A DNA stretch of 63,130 nucleotides, from the NCBI GenBank assembly GCA_903876795.1, contig CAIRBK010000027.1, positions 1 through 63,130 on the forward strand. Reading direction: 5' to 3'. Position 1 is the stretch's first letter. Every line of letters begins with the position of its first letter. Positions 3,593 through 62,145 of this stretch are shown in pieces. Made by a program: the position numbers and the translations under genes. The notes under the pieces were generated by a model that had not been told where the DNA came from, made no database searches, and worked only from the letters and a program-made list of their open reading frames with translations. Origin of the DNA: an uncultured Verrucomicrobiota bacterium (GTDB lineage Bacteria > Verrucomicrobiota > Verrucomicrobiia > Opitutales > Opitutaceae).

Positions 3593-4498
3593 ATGAGTCT
3601 ATTTGAGATCAAGGCGGAAATTTCTCCCGAGGTGGTCGACGCCATCGAGGATGTGCTGTTGGAACTCGGCGTTGAGGGGTGGAGCTTGCTGCAGGATGTT
3701 ATCAGCAAGCGGGCTTGGGTTGTCGGGGTTTTCGACGACGAAGCGTCTGCGCAAGTGCGCTGGAGCGAGTTGGTCCCGCTGATCGCTGACATCACGCAGC
3801 CTGGGGCCCCGGAGTTCCGAGTATTGGCCGACCAAGATTGGCGCGACAGCTACAAGGCCCACTTTAAAGCCTCTCGTTTTGGCAGGTTGCATTGGGTGCC
3901 GGTATGGGAACGCGAGCAGTTCCATCCCGGCTTGGGCGAGGTCGTTATTTGGCTGGATCCGGGTTTGGCTTTTGGCACTGGGAATCATGAAACCACCAGG
4001 CTTTGCTGCGAGCGGCTGTTGGCGTTGGCCGAGAAGGCGGGCGACCGGGTGGAGCAGCTCCGTGTGATTGACGCCGGATGCGGCTCGGGGATATTGGCCC
4101 TTTCGGCTGCCAAGCTCGGCTTTAAAAAGATTGCCGGCTTCGATAATGACCCCGAAGCCGTGCGGGTGAGCGAGGAAAACGCCGAGTTGAACGGTTTGTC
4201 CGGCACGGTGGAGTTTTCCACGAACGACTTGGTGGGCGGCCTAGGTGGTGGTCGCCAGGCCGAGGTGGTCTTGGCCAATATCCAGGCTGACGTGCTGATG
4301 CGTTTCGTCGGAGAGCTCACCGCTGCGGTCGCTCCGGGAGGGTCCTTGGTTTTAAGCGGTATCCTTGCGATCGAGTTGGAAAGGGTGCGGGAGGTGTTTG
4401 CCGCCGCAGTTCCGACGTGGACAATATCCACTCGCGTCATGGGGGAGTGGAGCGATTTGACCTTGGATTCCCCCCCGGCCCTTAGCCGCTGTCTTTAA
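3593..4498 (+). CDS. prmA: Ribosomal protein L11 methyltransferase
   Basis: 301 aa from ATG (MSLFEIKAEISPEVVDAIE). PrmA trimethylates L11 using S-adenosylmethionine. The N-terminal substrate-recognition domain (residues 1-60) is followed by the linker signature (ADQDWRDSYKAHFK), FGTGNHETT (about 127-135), the SAM-binding loop VIDAGCGSGILALSAAK (about 158-174) and the catalytic-site motif LANIQADVL (about 228-236). An internal ATG was preferred over the longer frame because homology starts there. The C-terminus ends directly against an R1 repeat whose first base follows the stop codon. Confidence 0.93.
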   Translation: MSLFEIKAEISPEVVDAIEDVLLELGVEGWSLLQDVISKRAWVVGVFDDEASAQVRWSELVPLIADITQPGAPEFRVLADQDWRDSYKAHFKASRFGRLHWVPVWEREQFHPGLGEVVIWLDPGLAFGTGNHETTRLCCERLLALAEKAGDRVEQLRVIDAGCGSGILALSAAKLGFKKIAGFDNDPEAVRVSEENAELNGLSGTVEFSTNDLVGGLGGGRQAEVVLANIQADVLMRFVGELTAAVAPGGSLVLSGILAIELERVREVFAAAVPTWTISTRVMGEWSDLTLDSPPALSRCL

Positions 4499-4668
4499 GA
4501 TGTGTTTCTGAAATAACTCATGTCGTCGAACTCTGCGAGTGAGAGGATAAGCAGGTTGGACGGGCGTTGCCATTGACGGCACGATCCTCTGGGTCGCTTC
4601 CTCCTCGGCCGCCTTGACCTAGCCCCCTTTCTCGCTCACGCAGAATCCCTTTATAAAACAAACACCCT
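4499..4668 (+). repeat. R1 dispersed repeat, copy A
   Basis: About 170 bp starting TGTGTTTCTGAAATAAC and ending AAACAAACACCC. Its core GTCGAACTCTGCGAGTGAGAG recurs at 40713-40886 in the same orientation and inverted at 60477-60650 and 61665-61838. This is the most diverged copy. It starts immediately after the prmA stop codon. Confidence 0.85.
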
Positions 4669-38075: not shown

Positions 38076-39803
38076 TCAGGTGCGATGACGCTCCTCGAGG
38101 CGGAGCGTCATCTCCACGCGGGCGCCTCGGTCGTTGAGCAGGAGCAGGTTTCCGCGCAGGCTTTGTTCGACGAGGAGTCGCATGAGCTTTAGGCCGACAT
38201 TGCCGCGTTGTCCGGCCAGGACCTCGGGGGCAAAGCCCGCGCCGTTGTCGGTGTAAGCGATGCACACGGTGTCGCCGGAAATCGTTTCGATCGTGCAATG
38301 GACCGCGGGCGAAGTCCGGGTGCAGCCATATTTGACGGTGTTGGTGGCGAGTTCGTTGAAAACCATGGCGAGGGCCGAGGCCTGTCGCGGGGAGATGCGT
38401 TCCGCGGAGGGTGAGATATCCAGGGCCGGGACGACGGGAGCCGCGCTCATGGCCGCTCCGATCACGCCCCGGGCCAGTTGGTCGATGCGGACGGGTGACC
38501 ATTGCGCGTCGTAGAGCATCCGGTGGACAAACATGAGCCCGCGCAGGCGTTGGGTCAGGCGGTCGAGCACGGGTGAGGCGGCGGCCCGGCGGTCTTCGGC
38601 GAGGTGTTCCTGTTCGTGCGAGATGAGGCCAAGCAGGGATGCGAGGTTGTTGGTCACGCGGTGATTCACCTCTCGCAGGAGGTGGGCCCTGGTCTGCGCG
38701 TCGGCCTGGGCCTGGGCCAGCAGGCGATGGTGTTCGCTCATGTCGCGGGCGGCCGCGAAAAGCCCGCTCACCGCGCCCGCCGCGTTGTGATAGACGCTGG
38801 CGTGAAAATTCACCGGCACGAGGGCGCCGCCCTTGTGCCGAATGGTCAGCGGATAATCGAGTACCCACTCCCGAGCATAGGCCTCCTGGTAGCCCCGGCG
38901 GGCGGCCTCCGGGTCGGTGAAATAATCGGCGAAGGCCGACCCGATCAGGCGGTAGCGAGGCCAGCCCAGCGCGTGTTCGGTGGCGGAGTTGACGTCGGTG
39001 ATGAGACCTTCGCGACTGATGGTGAAGAGGGGGTCCAGGCTGGCCTCGAGCAGGCGTCGGGCGTAGGCACTGGCGTCGCGGATCGTCGCATCGCGCGTCG
39101 CCAGCACGTCGAGCATGGCGTTCAAATCTTTCCCGAGCAGGCCGACTTCGTCGCGCCCGAGTTCGGGGGCGCGGACGTTTTGGGCGCCCGCCCTTACGCT
39201 GGCCAGAACGTTGCGGAGGGAATCGATTTGCCGGGTGAGCAGTTGCGCCATCATACCGGCGATCAGCGCGCCGACGCAGATGGCCACGAGGGCGTAAATC
39301 AATCCGTGCCTTGTCTCCTCGGCCACGGCGTCGTTGACGGATTGCAGGCTTAGCCCGAGTCGCACCCAGCCCACGTTCCGTCCGGCCAGTCGCACCGGCG
39401 AGCATACGTCCACGCCATCGGAGGTCAGGCGGCCGAACCCGGCGGGGTCGTCAGGCAGGTCCTGCACGTATTGTCCGATGCGACTTCGGTCCGTGTGGGC
39501 CAGCACCTTTCCCGAGGGGTCGATGAGCATCGCATACAGCAGGTCGGCCTGGCGTTTTTCGACGTCCACCAATTCTTGCATGCCGGCCAAGTCGCGCGCC
39601 GACAGCCAGCCGGCCGCCGATACCGCAAGCGTGGCGCCGATCGTGCCGGCGTGTTCGAGGTGTTGGTTGTGCAGCACGCGCGTATTGCGTCTGGTGAAGT
39701 CGTACACGAAGAGTCCGATCAACAGGGCGAGCACGCCCACGATGCCCACCATGAGGCGGGTTTTGAGTCGGTTGAAGAGCAGGGGAATCCAGTCTAGTTT
39801 CAT
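38076..39803 (-). CDS. Membrane histidine kinase with HAMP, PAS and HisKA_2 domains
   Basis: 575 aa. Transmembrane segments at about 17-35 and 165-187 flank a periplasmic sensor domain. A HAMP region (about 188-240) and a PAS domain (ASLDPLFTISREGLITDVNSATEHALGW, about 250-370) follow. The phosphoacceptor is in LREVNHRVTNNLASLLGL (His about 380), the HisKA_2/HWE-like type. An HATPase with MVFNELATNTVKYG and TDNGAGFAPE completes it. The start overlaps the stop of the substrate-binding protein gene by 4 bp, so the binding protein probably feeds this sensor. Confidence 0.9.
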   Translation of the reverse strand: MKLDWIPLLFNRLKTRLMVGIVGVLALLIGLFVYDFTRRNTRVLHNQHLEHAGTIGATLAVSAAGWLSARDLAGMQELVDVEKRQADLLYAMLIDPSGKVLAHTDRSRIGQYVQDLPDDPAGFGRLTSDGVDVCSPVRLAGRNVGWVRLGLSLQSVNDAVAEETRHGLIYALVAICVGALIAGMMAQLLTRQIDSLRNVLASVRAGAQNVRAPELGRDEVGLLGKDLNAMLDVLATRDATIRDASAYARRLLEASLDPLFTISREGLITDVNSATEHALGWPRYRLIGSAFADYFTDPEAARRGYQEAYAREWVLDYPLTIRHKGGALVPVNFHASVYHNAAGAVSGLFAAARDMSEHHRLLAQAQADAQTRAHLLREVNHRVTNNLASLLGLISHEQEHLAEDRRAAASPVLDRLTQRLRGLMFVHRMLYDAQWSPVRIDQLARGVIGAAMSAAPVVPALDISPSAERISPRQASALAMVFNELATNTVKYGCTRTSPAVHCTIETISGDTVCIAYTDNGAGFAPEVLAGQRGNVGLKLMRLLVEQSLRGNLLLLNDRGARVEMTLRLEERHRT

Positions 39804-40930
39804 GGCGCTCCCTTCCCGTCTTTCACCGGCCGGACTTCGGCCTCGAAGCGGGCGACAAACGCGCGCGCCGGTTCGTAATCGGCGTCCGTGGCGGGGTAAA
39901 AGTCGTTGGTGTTGATATCGGCCAGCAGCCGCCGTCCGGGTTCGGTTTCCGAGAGAGCACCTAGCTCCTCCGCGACGCGTTTTGCCAAGTTATCCGGCAC
40001 CCGGCGGTGGGCCATGACGGCGTTGTTGATCAGCGGAGGGGTTTCCCAGGCCACCTCCAATTCGGCCGCTTCCAAGGGATACTCCGCCTGGAAATTGAGC
40101 CAGGGTGGAGGCCAGGTCACGCCGGCCGCCGCCTCCCCGAGGTAAGCGTGCATGATGGCCGAGTGTTGGGAGCCGACGAAGCGGTTCCGGAGGTCGTGCA
40201 ACACGTCGAGGCCGTGCTCGTGCATCATCCATTGCGGCATGATGCAGGCCGCCAGGGCGGTCGGCGACGGATAGGCGACAACCTGCCCGCGTAGTTGGGC
40301 GAGATCGCGAAGCCCGCGGTCGCGGCGGGTGATGATGAGCCCGCGGAAGTCCTCCCGCCGGCCCGCCATCGCGATCACCCGGTAGCCTTGTTCCATCGCC
40401 TGCAGCGCCTGCCATGGGTTGGGCAGCAGGAAGTCGGGCAATTGCGCGGCGATTTTTTCCTCATAGGCGGCATAATCTCGGGATGGTTCCGCCAGAAGGC
40501 GGTCCGTTGGGGCCGGTAGTCGGAGGGTGTCCAGCAGCGGTTGATACGTTCGCGCCAGTTTCGCCGGGTTGTGGAGCGGGTGAATGGCGAAGGACCAGTC
40601 GTGCGTCAGATTGAGCGATTGATTCGGCGAGGTGCCGTAGGTCACTCCGGTTGCCTGCGGTGACGAGTCGCGGAGGAGCCACCCTGCCGCCAGGAATGCC
40701 AGCAACAGTGCCAGGGCGTGTTTCTGGAATAACCCAGGCCGTCGAACACTGCGAGTGAGAGGGTAGGCAGGCTGGGCCGGCGTTGCCATCGACGGCACGA
40801 CCCGCCGGGTCGCCTCTGTCTCGGTCGCCTGGGCCGAGCCCGCTTCTCCTCTCACGCCGACCCGATTTTTTTCCGAAACACGCCCTAAGGCAGTCGCTTC
40901 CCGGACGATTTTTTTGCCCCTTGTCTTCAT
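39800..40930 (-). CDS. PhnD-like periplasmic/anchored substrate-binding protein with an in-frame repeat in its signal sequence
   Basis: 376 aa. The mature part has the PhnD/TauT-like pattern: FAIHPLHNPAKLARTYQPLLDTL, GYRVIAMAGRREDFRGLIITRRD, LRGQVVAYPSPTALAACIMPQWMM, GSQHSAIMHAYLGEAAAGVTW and ALSETEPGRRLLADI. Positively charged MKTRGKKIVREATAL (1-15) is separated from the hydrophobic LALLLAFLAAGWLL (about 74-87) by 58 residues encoded by repeat R1 (KNRVGVRGEAGSAQATETEA and onward). Without the repeat the N-terminus would be an ordinary signal sequence. No ABC transporter genes are nearby; the gene overlaps the kinase gene, suggesting sensing rather than uptake. Confidence 0.82.
   Translation of the reverse strand: MKTRGKKIVREATALGRVSEKNRVGVRGEAGSAQATETEATRRVVPSMATPAQPAYPLTRSVRRPGLFQKHALALLLAFLAAGWLLRDSSPQATGVTYGTSPNQSLNLTHDWSFAIHPLHNPAKLARTYQPLLDTLRLPAPTDRLLAEPSRDYAAYEEKIAAQLPDFLLPNPWQALQAMEQGYRVIAMAGRREDFRGLIITRRDRGLRDLAQLRGQVVAYPSPTALAACIMPQWMMHEHGLDVLHDLRNRFVGSQHSAIMHAYLGEAAAGVTWPPPWLNFQAEYPLEAAELEVAWETPPLINNAVMAHRRVPDNLAKRVAEELGALSETEPGRRLLADINTNDFYPATDADYEPARAFVARFEAEVRPVKDGKGAP
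40713..40886 (+). repeat. R1 dispersed repeat, copy B, inside a coding sequence
   Basis: 174 bp with perfect 12-bp inverted ends (AGGGCGTGTTTC / GAAACACGCCCT). Same orientation as copy A. It adds exactly 58 codons to the overlapping minus-strand gene without a stop. Confidence 0.9.
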
Positions 40931-41090
40931 GCGTTGCCGGCCGGTGAAGACCTGCCTGCAACCTGGCACTTCACCCACCTGGGCGCAGGCGCTAAAGCAA
41001 CCGGGCGTTTAACTATGAGGACGCCTAACCGCGGTCAGTGTTTTGCGTAAGCGGGCTCTGGCGGGCGGTTCGGGCGAGATGCGCGAAAAA

Positions 41091-52472: not shown

Positions 52473-52930
52473 ATGCTGGTGGATGCACGAGCCAGAGGTC
52501 GGATTATCAAGCGCGAAGAGCCCTTTTACCAATGGTTGCGTGAATTAAGACTACCCGGACGAAACGGCTCCGCCGTGCCGCTACGGATTCCCAAAGGGGC
52601 GGAATCGCGGAGCGATTTCGGTTGGGAGATCGTTTAGCCTAAAAGCATTCAGCCACTGGTAGATGGCTCACCACGAAACGATCCCCGTATGGCAGCGTCC
52701 GACCCCGGACGCTCCCCGCTCAACCCAAACGCCCGGGTACGGGCGTTGCCACACTGCTTTGTCACCACACTGAGGTGGTTGCCAAACTGGGAAAGTGGCC
52801 ACAGCTCAAGGAAGGAGCCTGCTTGCAGACGATGATATGGGACCGCCTTGCAAGGTTTGCGGACCATCGGGGGAACTTTTTGCGCCTTTGCCTTTGCCAC
52901 GGGCGCGGGCGTGGCCCTTCGTTTTTCCTC
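52473..52930. repeat. Non-coding gap holding an R2 repeat copy
   Basis: R2 copy at about 52688-52873 (GGCAGCGTCCGACCCCGGAC to GCGGACCATCGGGGG), related to 60364-60476 and 61519-61664. It includes a REP-like AGGAGCCTGCTTGCAGACGA. Before it, 52474-52637 gives only a doubtful 55-codon frame with no recognised product. Confidence 0.6.
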
Positions 52931-60363: not shown

Positions 60364-60476
60364 GTAGCCGCATCCGTCCCCGGCCGCGCGGTTCGATGCC
60401 TCAAAGCAAACGCCCGTGGACGGACCCGGCCACACCGCTGGCAAAGGCGCGGCACCGCTTTGCGGAGCATCGACCG
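60364..60476 (+). repeat. R2 repeat copy abutting R1
   Basis: Begins TGTAGCCGCATCCGTCCCCG and ends CTTTGCGGAGCATCGACCG directly against R1 copy C. Related to 52688-52873 and 61519-61664. Confidence 0.7.
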
Positions 60477-60650
60477 AGGGTGTATTTCTAAAATCAATGG
60501 GGTCGGCGTGAGAGGAGCAGCAGGCTCGGCCAAGGCGGCCGAGACGGATGCGACGCGGCGGCTCGCGCCGTCGAGGGCAACGCTGGCCCAGCCTGCTTTT
60601 CCTCTCACTCGCAGAGTTCGACGACCTGAGTTATTTCAGAAACATACCCT
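60477..60650 (-). repeat. R1 dispersed repeat, copy C
   Basis: 174 bp, inverted relative to copies A and B. Ends AGGGTGTATTTCT / AGAAACATACCCT. Its core (GCCGAGACGGATGCGACGCG) is almost identical to copy D. It is 8 bp before the SDR start codon. Confidence 0.9.
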
Positions 60651-60658
60651 AAACTCCC

Positions 60659-61474
<816 letters not shown>

Positions 61475-61664
61475 GCTGACGCAGCGTCTCCCCCGGCGTG
61501 TGTTTCTGAAACAACCCCGCGTAGCAGCGTCCATCCCCGGACGCTCCCTCCTTAACCCAAACGCCCGGGGACGGGCGTTGCCACACACGGCGATGGTCGC
61601 CGCAACTCCAGGTACGAGCCTGCTTGAAGTCGATGTTCGGCACCGCCTTGCGGACCATCGCCCG
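61475..61664 (+). repeat. R2 repeat copy abutting R1 copy D
   Basis: GTAGCAGCGTCCATCCCCGG to GACCATCGCCCG, about 61519-61664. It is preceded at 61497-61511 by an extra R1-like end (GTGTGTTTCTGAAAC), so this locus has three R1 termini. Confidence 0.75.
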
Positions 61665-61838
61665 GGGGTGTGTTTCTGGAATAAATCGGGTCGGCGTGAG
61701 AGAAGAAGCGGGCTCGGCGAAGGCGGCCGAGACGGATGCGACGCGGCGGCTCGCGCCGTCGAGGGCAACGCCGGCCCAGCCTGCTTTTCCTCTCACTCGC
61801 AGAGTTCGACGACCTGAGTTATTTCAGAAACACACCCT
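61665..61838 (-). repeat. R1 dispersed repeat, copy D
   Basis: 174 bp, inverted relative to A and B, nearly identical to copy C. Right end GTTATTTCAGAAACACACCC. Confidence 0.9.
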
Positions 61839-62145
61839 ATTCCGCAACCACCGCCTGCCATGCCAAGCTAACGATTCTCCGGTCCGGCCCCCATCTTCGC
61901 GAACCTGTGTTGTCTTGATACTCGTCAATCGCGGCCCGGACAAAATCAATAACCGCCAAAGAGGGCCGAGGTGATACACAGATACATTCTGATTTTGAGT
62001 TGGTCGTCTCGATTTCGCCGTAATGTATCTATGTAACAACCTGACCCCTTTGGCTCGTGAACTGCGGGCACAAATCGAAAAAAACGCCGGGAGCAGACGC
62101 GGCGACCGCAGGGTTCTGCGCCGTTATGTTCCCGGTGGCCGTGCG
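61839..62145. other. Gap with a 9-bp inverted repeat, no gene recognised
   Basis: AGATACATT (61980-61988) and its complement AATGTATCT (62022-62030) flank 33 bp. The stretch ends ACAACCTGACCCCTTTGG (62035-62052), reminiscent of transposon ends, but no transposase is present. Confidence 0.35.

Follow-up and report, generated by a model that had tools for sequence, protein, structure and literature searches.

A gene for a PhnD-like substrate-binding protein in an uncultured member of the Verrucomicrobiota raises the question of whether a mobile hairpin element can insert into a protein and leave it unbroken, and if so, what becomes of the protein. The gene lies in the window, i.e., the whole stretch of 63,130 nucleotides analysed here, which is contig C27 of a 3.57-Mb genome in 103 contigs. 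The locus is an easily tested case of a hairpin transposon that has entered a protein in this way.

The interrupted gene

The gene product matches the profile PF12974 (Phosphonate-bd) over its full length (E = 1.8e-44; profile positions 1–242 of 242). Read on the minus strand, the gene begins with MKTRGKKIVREATAL, continues through 58 codons and resumes with ALLLAFLAAGWLLRDSS, the reading frame being open across the insert (Table 1). If nucleotides 40713–40886 are deleted in silico, MKTRGKKIVREATALALLLAFLAAGWLLRDSSPQATG is restored. The protein would then begin with MKTRGKKIVREATALALLLAFLAAGWLL, and its h-region is orthologue-like in a hydropathy window. The preliminary description had seen here a 174-nt palindromic repeat inserted in frame, as 58 codons without a stop, between the n- and h-regions of a signal sequence, and had stated that its removal joins a normal signal sequence. 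All of this is borne out by the sequence itself, by the open frame, by matches to other copies of the repeat (R1) and by the RNA fold of the insert (−97 kcal/mol, z = −6.2; 0 of 200 shuffles as stable).

The insert is made up of 172 bp and a dinucleotide that has been duplicated. It is flanked by TA (40887–40886) and TG (40713–40712), which leaves its boundaries ambiguous by 1–2 nt, but either choice gives a net insertion of 174 nt. The 302 codons 3' of the insert are intact, and so is the kinase gene that follows.

Table 1. Positions of the host gene, the insert and related features (window coordinates unless a contig or locus is named)
Feature	Position	Strand	Basis or remark
PhnD-like (PF12974) substrate-binding protein gene with insert	39800..40930	-	376 codons from ATG 40930
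Sensor histidine kinase gene (sCache, HAMP, PAS, HWE/HisKA_2, HATPase)	38076..39803	-	overlaps stop of binding-protein gene
n-region of original signal sequence, MKTRGKKIVREATAL	40886..40930	-	
R1 element (probable MITE) copy, 174 nt net insertion, single open frame of 58 codons	40713..40886	-	repeat matches
Terminal inverted repeat, gene's 5' side, AGGGCGTGTTTCGGAAAAAA	40867..40886	-	
Terminal inverted repeat, gene's 3' side, AGGGCGTGTTTCTGGAATAA	40713..40732	+	
h-region 3' of insert, ALLLAFLAAGWLL	40673..40711	-	read by eye
Alternative in-frame GTG start	40967..40969	-	Shine-Dalgarno-like upstream, −8.9 kcal/mol
In-frame ATG inside element, possible new start	40787..40789	-	codon 34 of family frame
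Full-length R1 copy	4497..4667	-	window repeat match
Full-length R1 copy	60477..60651	+	window repeat match
Full-length R1 copy	61666..61839	+	window repeat match
Part of R2 repeat unit	52607..52633	+	
534-codon ORF with in-frame R1 copy	C75:30798-32399 (= L096:129-1730)	-	frame reading

The uninterrupted form in orthologues

Orthologues were sought in 372 genomes of the order and in one genus of the family, represented by 13 genomes. More than 50% identity was found in three genomes, G275 (58%), G367 (56%) and G397 (52%), all from the same family; by eye, the N-termini of these orthologues read MLSPKTLQTRGTRALLALLALCGGVLGGC, MHSLDSISRLACVAGMLAILAWGSLSAGC and MPGLPSFSRWYSRRPLSWALVLSLLGLLPLGC, respectively. 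The 58-residue segment is absent from all three, and their signals, judged like the others by eye and with a hydropathy window, are ordinary and about as long as the restored one. The uninterrupted form, for which a comparison of orthologues had been proposed, thus exists; the orthologues being just 52–58% identical, it is not an empty site seen in a near-identical strain. Two further relatives in the order share 22–25% identity, and in the 12 other members of the genus that were searched no match outside the element exceeds 22% identity. A gammaproteobacterial MAG encodes a more remote relative (37% identity), whose signal is short and without Cys.

In each of the three same-family orthologues the signal ends in Cys, as is typical of lipoproteins. 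In the window protein Trp stands at roughly this position, a replacement by which its localisation may have been altered or lost. A sensor-kinase-like membrane ORF follows the gene in all three orthologues, too (by eye). Since such an ORF stands next to the gene both in the window and in these three relatives, the PF12974 protein and the kinase probably work as a sensing pair, the former being its extracytoplasmic part.

R1 as a probable mobile element

R1 is present in the genome in at least 59 full-length copies of approximately 174 bp. The number is a lower bound because the genome search scored 150 out of 3820 candidates and the nhmmer pass covered the fetched loci only. The profile was built from 28 copies, and a copy was considered full-length when it extended from model position 15 or below to 165 or above; 22 further rows from the fetched loci are fragments. 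Copies diverge from the consensus by 9.6% on average, the copy in the host gene by 7.6%, and the three other window copies match the host-gene insert at 77–87%. The consensus forms one long hairpin (−116 kcal/mol, z = −11.2; 0 of 200 shuffles as stable), and its 18-nt end sequence, with up to 3 mismatches, is found at 125 sites in the genome versus 0 for the reversed control. R1 is short, multicopy and without a transposase of its own, and has terminal inverted repeats, which are all properties of a MITE. Its 57-residue peptide has no match in Pfam.

Among the 59 listed copies, TA flanks the left end in 17, the right end in 22 and both ends in 7; the flanking dinucleotides are identical on both sides in 10. 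A pyrimidine (C or T) precedes the left TA in all 17 cases, and a purine (A or G) follows the right TA in 20 of 22. We interpret the pattern as a YTAR target whose TA becomes duplicated, the duplication having decayed in most copies. The host-gene copy has the flanks TA/TG.

Empty sites are provided by a second palindromic repeat, R2, of which the genome contains 29 units (27-nt probe, up to 3 mismatches). Eighteen of these were examined at the point where R1 is found. A full R1 copy lies within 5 nt of one and the same point in 10 of the 29 units, in one unit it lies 13 nt off that point, and one more holds a partial copy; the point is empty in three units by pattern search and in three others (on contigs C1, C2 and C3) by eye. 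The ten copies are split 4 to 6 between the two orientations, and their mutual likeness (0.829) does not exceed that of random sets of copies (0.830; P = 0.55); the site was thus struck repeatedly. R1 hence has, as a MITE should, a target-site duplication (TA at both ends in the 7 copies mentioned) and empty sites (in R2).

A partner was sought with two IS5-type transposase families over 13 members of the genus. This gave a single IS with R1-like ends on both sides, in the congener G012 (L155:950-1851, 902 bp, TA-flanked). Its transposase reading of 243 amino acids scores 254 bits against NCBIfam transpos_IS5_3 (cut-off 110), and the R1 end agrees with its right end in 23 of 25 nt, while none of 2000 shuffles agreed in more than 17 of 25. 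R1 thus has its ends in common with an autonomous IS of the IS5 family, of which G008 has a 96% piece and G001 a 72% relative. An intact partner IS was not found in the window's genome, where the best trace is 69% identical over 378 of 906 nt; a sub-threshold scrap of the IS adjoins the R1 copy C72:30945. In this genome R1 is probably without a living partner, which fits the divergence among its copies. An IS630/Tc1-type partner, suspected from the TA duplication, was dismissed, the two DDE_3 matches in the own genome being without R1-like ends in the loci read.

It is quite likely that R1 is a MITE of the IS5-family type and that the copy in the host gene is a chance insertion. What counts against this is that TA is found on both sides in so few copies and that the own genome has no intact partner. 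An IS5-type transposase would have moved an R1 copy, the mobility of which we infer, into TA (or TG) within the codons of the signal sequence.

In-frame copies and the R1 peptide

The insert is open because one of the six frames of the R1 consensus has no stop. This frame is stop-free in 35 of the 59 listed copies, compared with 36.2 ± 3.7 in a neutral simulation starting from the consensus. The synonymous fraction across R1 copies is 0.280, the expected one 0.293. In the host-gene copy 6 of 13 differences are synonymous (P = 0.15, binomial; P = 0.13 versus other copies). In these comparisons nothing marks the R1 peptide as selected as a protein.

The 59 listed copies overlap with called coding sequence by 1% on average, whereas their surroundings are coding to 84% (loci) or 88% (window). 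It should be noted that the genes were called with our own codon-score gene finder, which called none across any of the 59 copies and misses N-terminal insertions: it overlooked both the host-gene copy and C75:32169. Because of this blindness the frames open across each copy were listed and the candidates read. Two of the 59 copies were found to be in frame in a gene, namely the host-gene copy and C75:32169-32343, so that the search for R1 in other frames, also proposed in the preliminary description, has provided a second case. For the other 57, no in-frame gene was seen in the gene models or upon inspection of the open frames.

Several candidates were rejected by eye: C87:17823 is antisense to a permease-like ORF, C74:20209 and C95:8673 are followed by an ordinary Met start after the element, and other ORFs across R1 copies score below a gene on the opposite strand. 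Out of the 22 fragment rows and a further 18 taken from 15 extra loci, called genes are overlapped by two, C72:16750 (0.72) and a short piece in L136 (0.65); neither looks inserted within a real gene. No clear further case emerged from the open frames across the fragment rows and across 21 congener and family loci among the matches listed.

The ends of R1 also touch neighbouring genes in another manner. The stop codon of a called gene lies between −8 and +25 nt from the element end in 14 of the 59 listed copies, e.g., C84:25158 and C74:36721. The target TA with a G after it reads TAG, and a TGA is found further in, so that R1 ends can supply stops to neighbouring genes.

In the second case (Table 1) the ORF reads VTRRSPLLALFVFLVVATQ up to the element (GCVSEINRVGV...), behind which lies the body of the protein. 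R1 comes immediately after the h-region of what is probably an export signal, and the first codons of the element encode Gly-Cys. The ORF would start at GTG; no Shine-Dalgarno motif was seen before this GTG. A weak match of the protein to CusF (E = 5e-6; 26.7 bits versus a cut-off of 27) and a sub-threshold match to BNR fit an exported protein; there was no match among solved structures or in NCBIfam. Since both in-frame copies found (2/59) are in or beside signal sequences, these two cases suggest that it is in export signals that such insertions are tolerated.

Comparison with known palindromic elements

The preliminary description had likened R1 to the RPEs of Rickettsia, short palindromic elements that are read in frame within genes (PMC10969869, PMC2229807; excerpts). 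In R. conorii nearly half of the RPEs reported are located in ORFs, each being said to encode a conserved peptide, and RPEs are presented as unusually frequent in in-frame fusions (PMC10969869, excerpts). The likeness is the in-frame insertion in a protein gene, in the host gene as well as in C75:32169. R1 differs in that such an intragenic location is uncommon (2/59) and in that its peptide is at the neutral expectation. As judged from sequence, R1 acts like an RPE at the host-gene locus, and the family-wide features of RPEs that were tested were not found in R1. What stands of the comparison is thus a mobile palindromic element in frame in a signal sequence; a habit of the family is not supported. 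A palindromic element of 172–174 bp with an open frame, found in frame in two genes, could in principle belong to an RPE-like family that lives in genes by means of a tolerated peptide. With no in-frame gene seen for 57 of the 59 listed copies, a neutral open frame, and ends and target of the IS5 type, this is very improbable for R1.

Among MITEs there are closer parallels. For example, the RU-2/YPAL element of Yersinia is a MITE of 168 bp, and in the exported protein YPO1552 the signal peptide is said to consist in part of the MITE (PMC2229807, excerpts). It resembles R1 in length, in the open frame and in the fusion to an exported protein. The RU-2/YPAL peptide, however, is hydrophobic and itself contributes to the signal, whereas the R1 peptide is charged and splits or extends an existing n-region. 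The Correia/NEMIS elements of Neisseria, which can be likened to R1 by description, are also TA-ended hairpin MITEs; one form is almost exclusively intergenic, and a 107-bp form with open frames is gene-fused. Bacterial MITEs in general are primarily intergenic, some with open frames being fused in frame to genes (both PMC2229807, excerpts). In-frame fusions of MITEs, one involving a signal peptide, are therefore already known (PMC10969869, PMC2229807). In the light of this literature R1 would be a new MITE family with an in-frame insertion of a known type at an unusual spot. A description of the R1 family was not found in the literature searched, excerpts of PMC3733652 included, which is no proof of absence.

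With respect to ends and target, R1 is best compared with IS711, a member of the IS5 family. In Brucella the TA of YTAR is reportedly duplicated by IS711, and the Bru-RS palindromic repeats are reportedly preferred (PMC2266754, excerpts). Features common to IS711, MITEs from such IS and R1 are terminal inverted repeats, a YTAR target of which the TA is duplicated, and recurrent insertion into palindromic repeats of another kind. R1 differs in having no transposase, in being almost wholly hairpin and in that its presumed partner is found whole only in a congener.

Start codons and fate of the protein

The length that a typical copy adds, 174 nt (172 + 2), is divisible by three. Since the consensus is in addition open in one frame, insertion in the right orientation and phase would add approximately 58 residues and leave the gene unbroken. 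In the host gene the added residues would part the basic n-region from the hydrophobic h-region, the downstream gene staying intact. The insertion may persist because the N-terminus appears to be weakly constrained; no gain for the cell is needed as explanation.

Which product is made depends on the start. Free energies of duplex formation were computed with a generic 16S tail. Before the element they are +1.1 kcal/mol for GTG 40978, −8.9 for GTG 40969 and −2.8 for ATG 40930; inside the element −4.4 for GTG 40855, −7.6 for GTG 40798 and −6.5 for ATG 40789; and within the h-region −1.5 for TTG 40705. The codon-score gene finder put the start downstream, as if the gene began behind the element and R1 lay merely in its 5' leader. 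This is highly unlikely, since the sole start listed past the element is TTG 40705, which would cost the protein its basic n-region, and since removal of the element restores a signal of about orthologue length.

As the chance insertion of a MITE, R1 would leave two ways to a membrane protein. From the old start, the protein would carry a cytoplasmic n-region of 73 residues; from a start in the element (ATG 40789), a basic n-region of 24 residues would precede the h-region. On balance, the protein would still be made and inserted into the membrane. Continued export has an even chance. The intact downstream gene weakly favours continued function, and the missing Cys points the other way.

The opposite outcome, somewhat less probable, is that export has been wrecked, the n- and h-regions being 58 residues apart, so that the protein would be cytoplasmic or degraded and the gene a recent pseudogene still without stops. 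The absence of the Cys with which the signals of the three orthologues end and the weak ribosome-binding energy at ATG 40930 speak for it, and so does the neutral estimate for the downstream codons. Of the 13 differences of the host-gene copy, 8 are found in at most 3 of the 58 other copies; if these 8 arose after insertion (4.7% divergence), the neutral probability of staying free of stops and indels is 0.14, and it is 0.45 at 2% and 0.05 at 7.6% divergence. The 302 intact downstream codons are thus only weakly improbable under neutrality. Against a loss of export stand the full-length PF12974 match and the intact overlapping kinase gene, the basic residues that the element supplies ahead of the hydrophobic stretch (RSVRRPGLFQKH), and the second in-frame copy in another protein of the exported type.

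A start at ATG 40789 would have a further consequence. The codon is absent from the consensus, and the protein would begin with MATPAQPAYPLTRSVRRPGLFQKHALALLLAFLAAGWLL, giving MATPAQPAYPLTRSVRRPGLFQKH plus the h-region, so that the element could have been recruited, its C-terminal half serving as the new n-region. An ATG at this codon is present in 2 of the 59 listed copies, including that in the host gene; its upstream duplex is stronger than that of ATG 40930, and the resulting n-region is short and basic. The other copy with this ATG, however, is 4497-4667 of the window, outside called genes. Moreover, there is no clear Shine-Dalgarno motif before ATG 40789, GTG 40969 is better in duplex energy, the ATG lies within the hairpin (unpaired probability 0.28 versus 0.49 at ATG 40930), and the synonymous share of the host-gene copy is not significantly raised. 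Recruitment at this locus is therefore unlikely, and less likely still is that R1 is being recruited generally as an N-terminal module of exported proteins. If recruitment were true, the binding protein would have gained a start and a basic n-region, hence a second signal and perhaps two differently located products; the Gly-Cys pair behind the h-region in C75, which is lipobox-like, could turn a secreted protein into a lipoprotein; and signal sequences would be a gateway for the R1 family into proteins.

Tandem copies and different ends

Some R1 copies deviate from the single element. Two R1 copies in the window belong to a 202-nt repeat with a shared left flank (60450-60651 and 61638-61839) and are 93% alike, the family average being 83%. 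Head-to-tail tandem copies are found at C44:2948-3291 and C87:17823-18117; the latter pair, which extends to the end of its contig, may have arisen during assembly. Other ends (AGGTGCTGTCTTCAAAATAA type) surround R1-like cores in the congener loci L044, L039, L041, L045 and L058 and in the own genome at C72:16750. Of 21 R1-like loci among the matches listed, 9 have R1-type ends and 5 ends of the AGGTGCTGTCTTCAAAATAA type, 7 being unclear. Conversely, R1-type ends surround a different core (CCCCGTGTAGCAGCGTCC...) at C60:15762, C3:10857 and window positions 61495-61586, as if several MITE families were using one set of ends.
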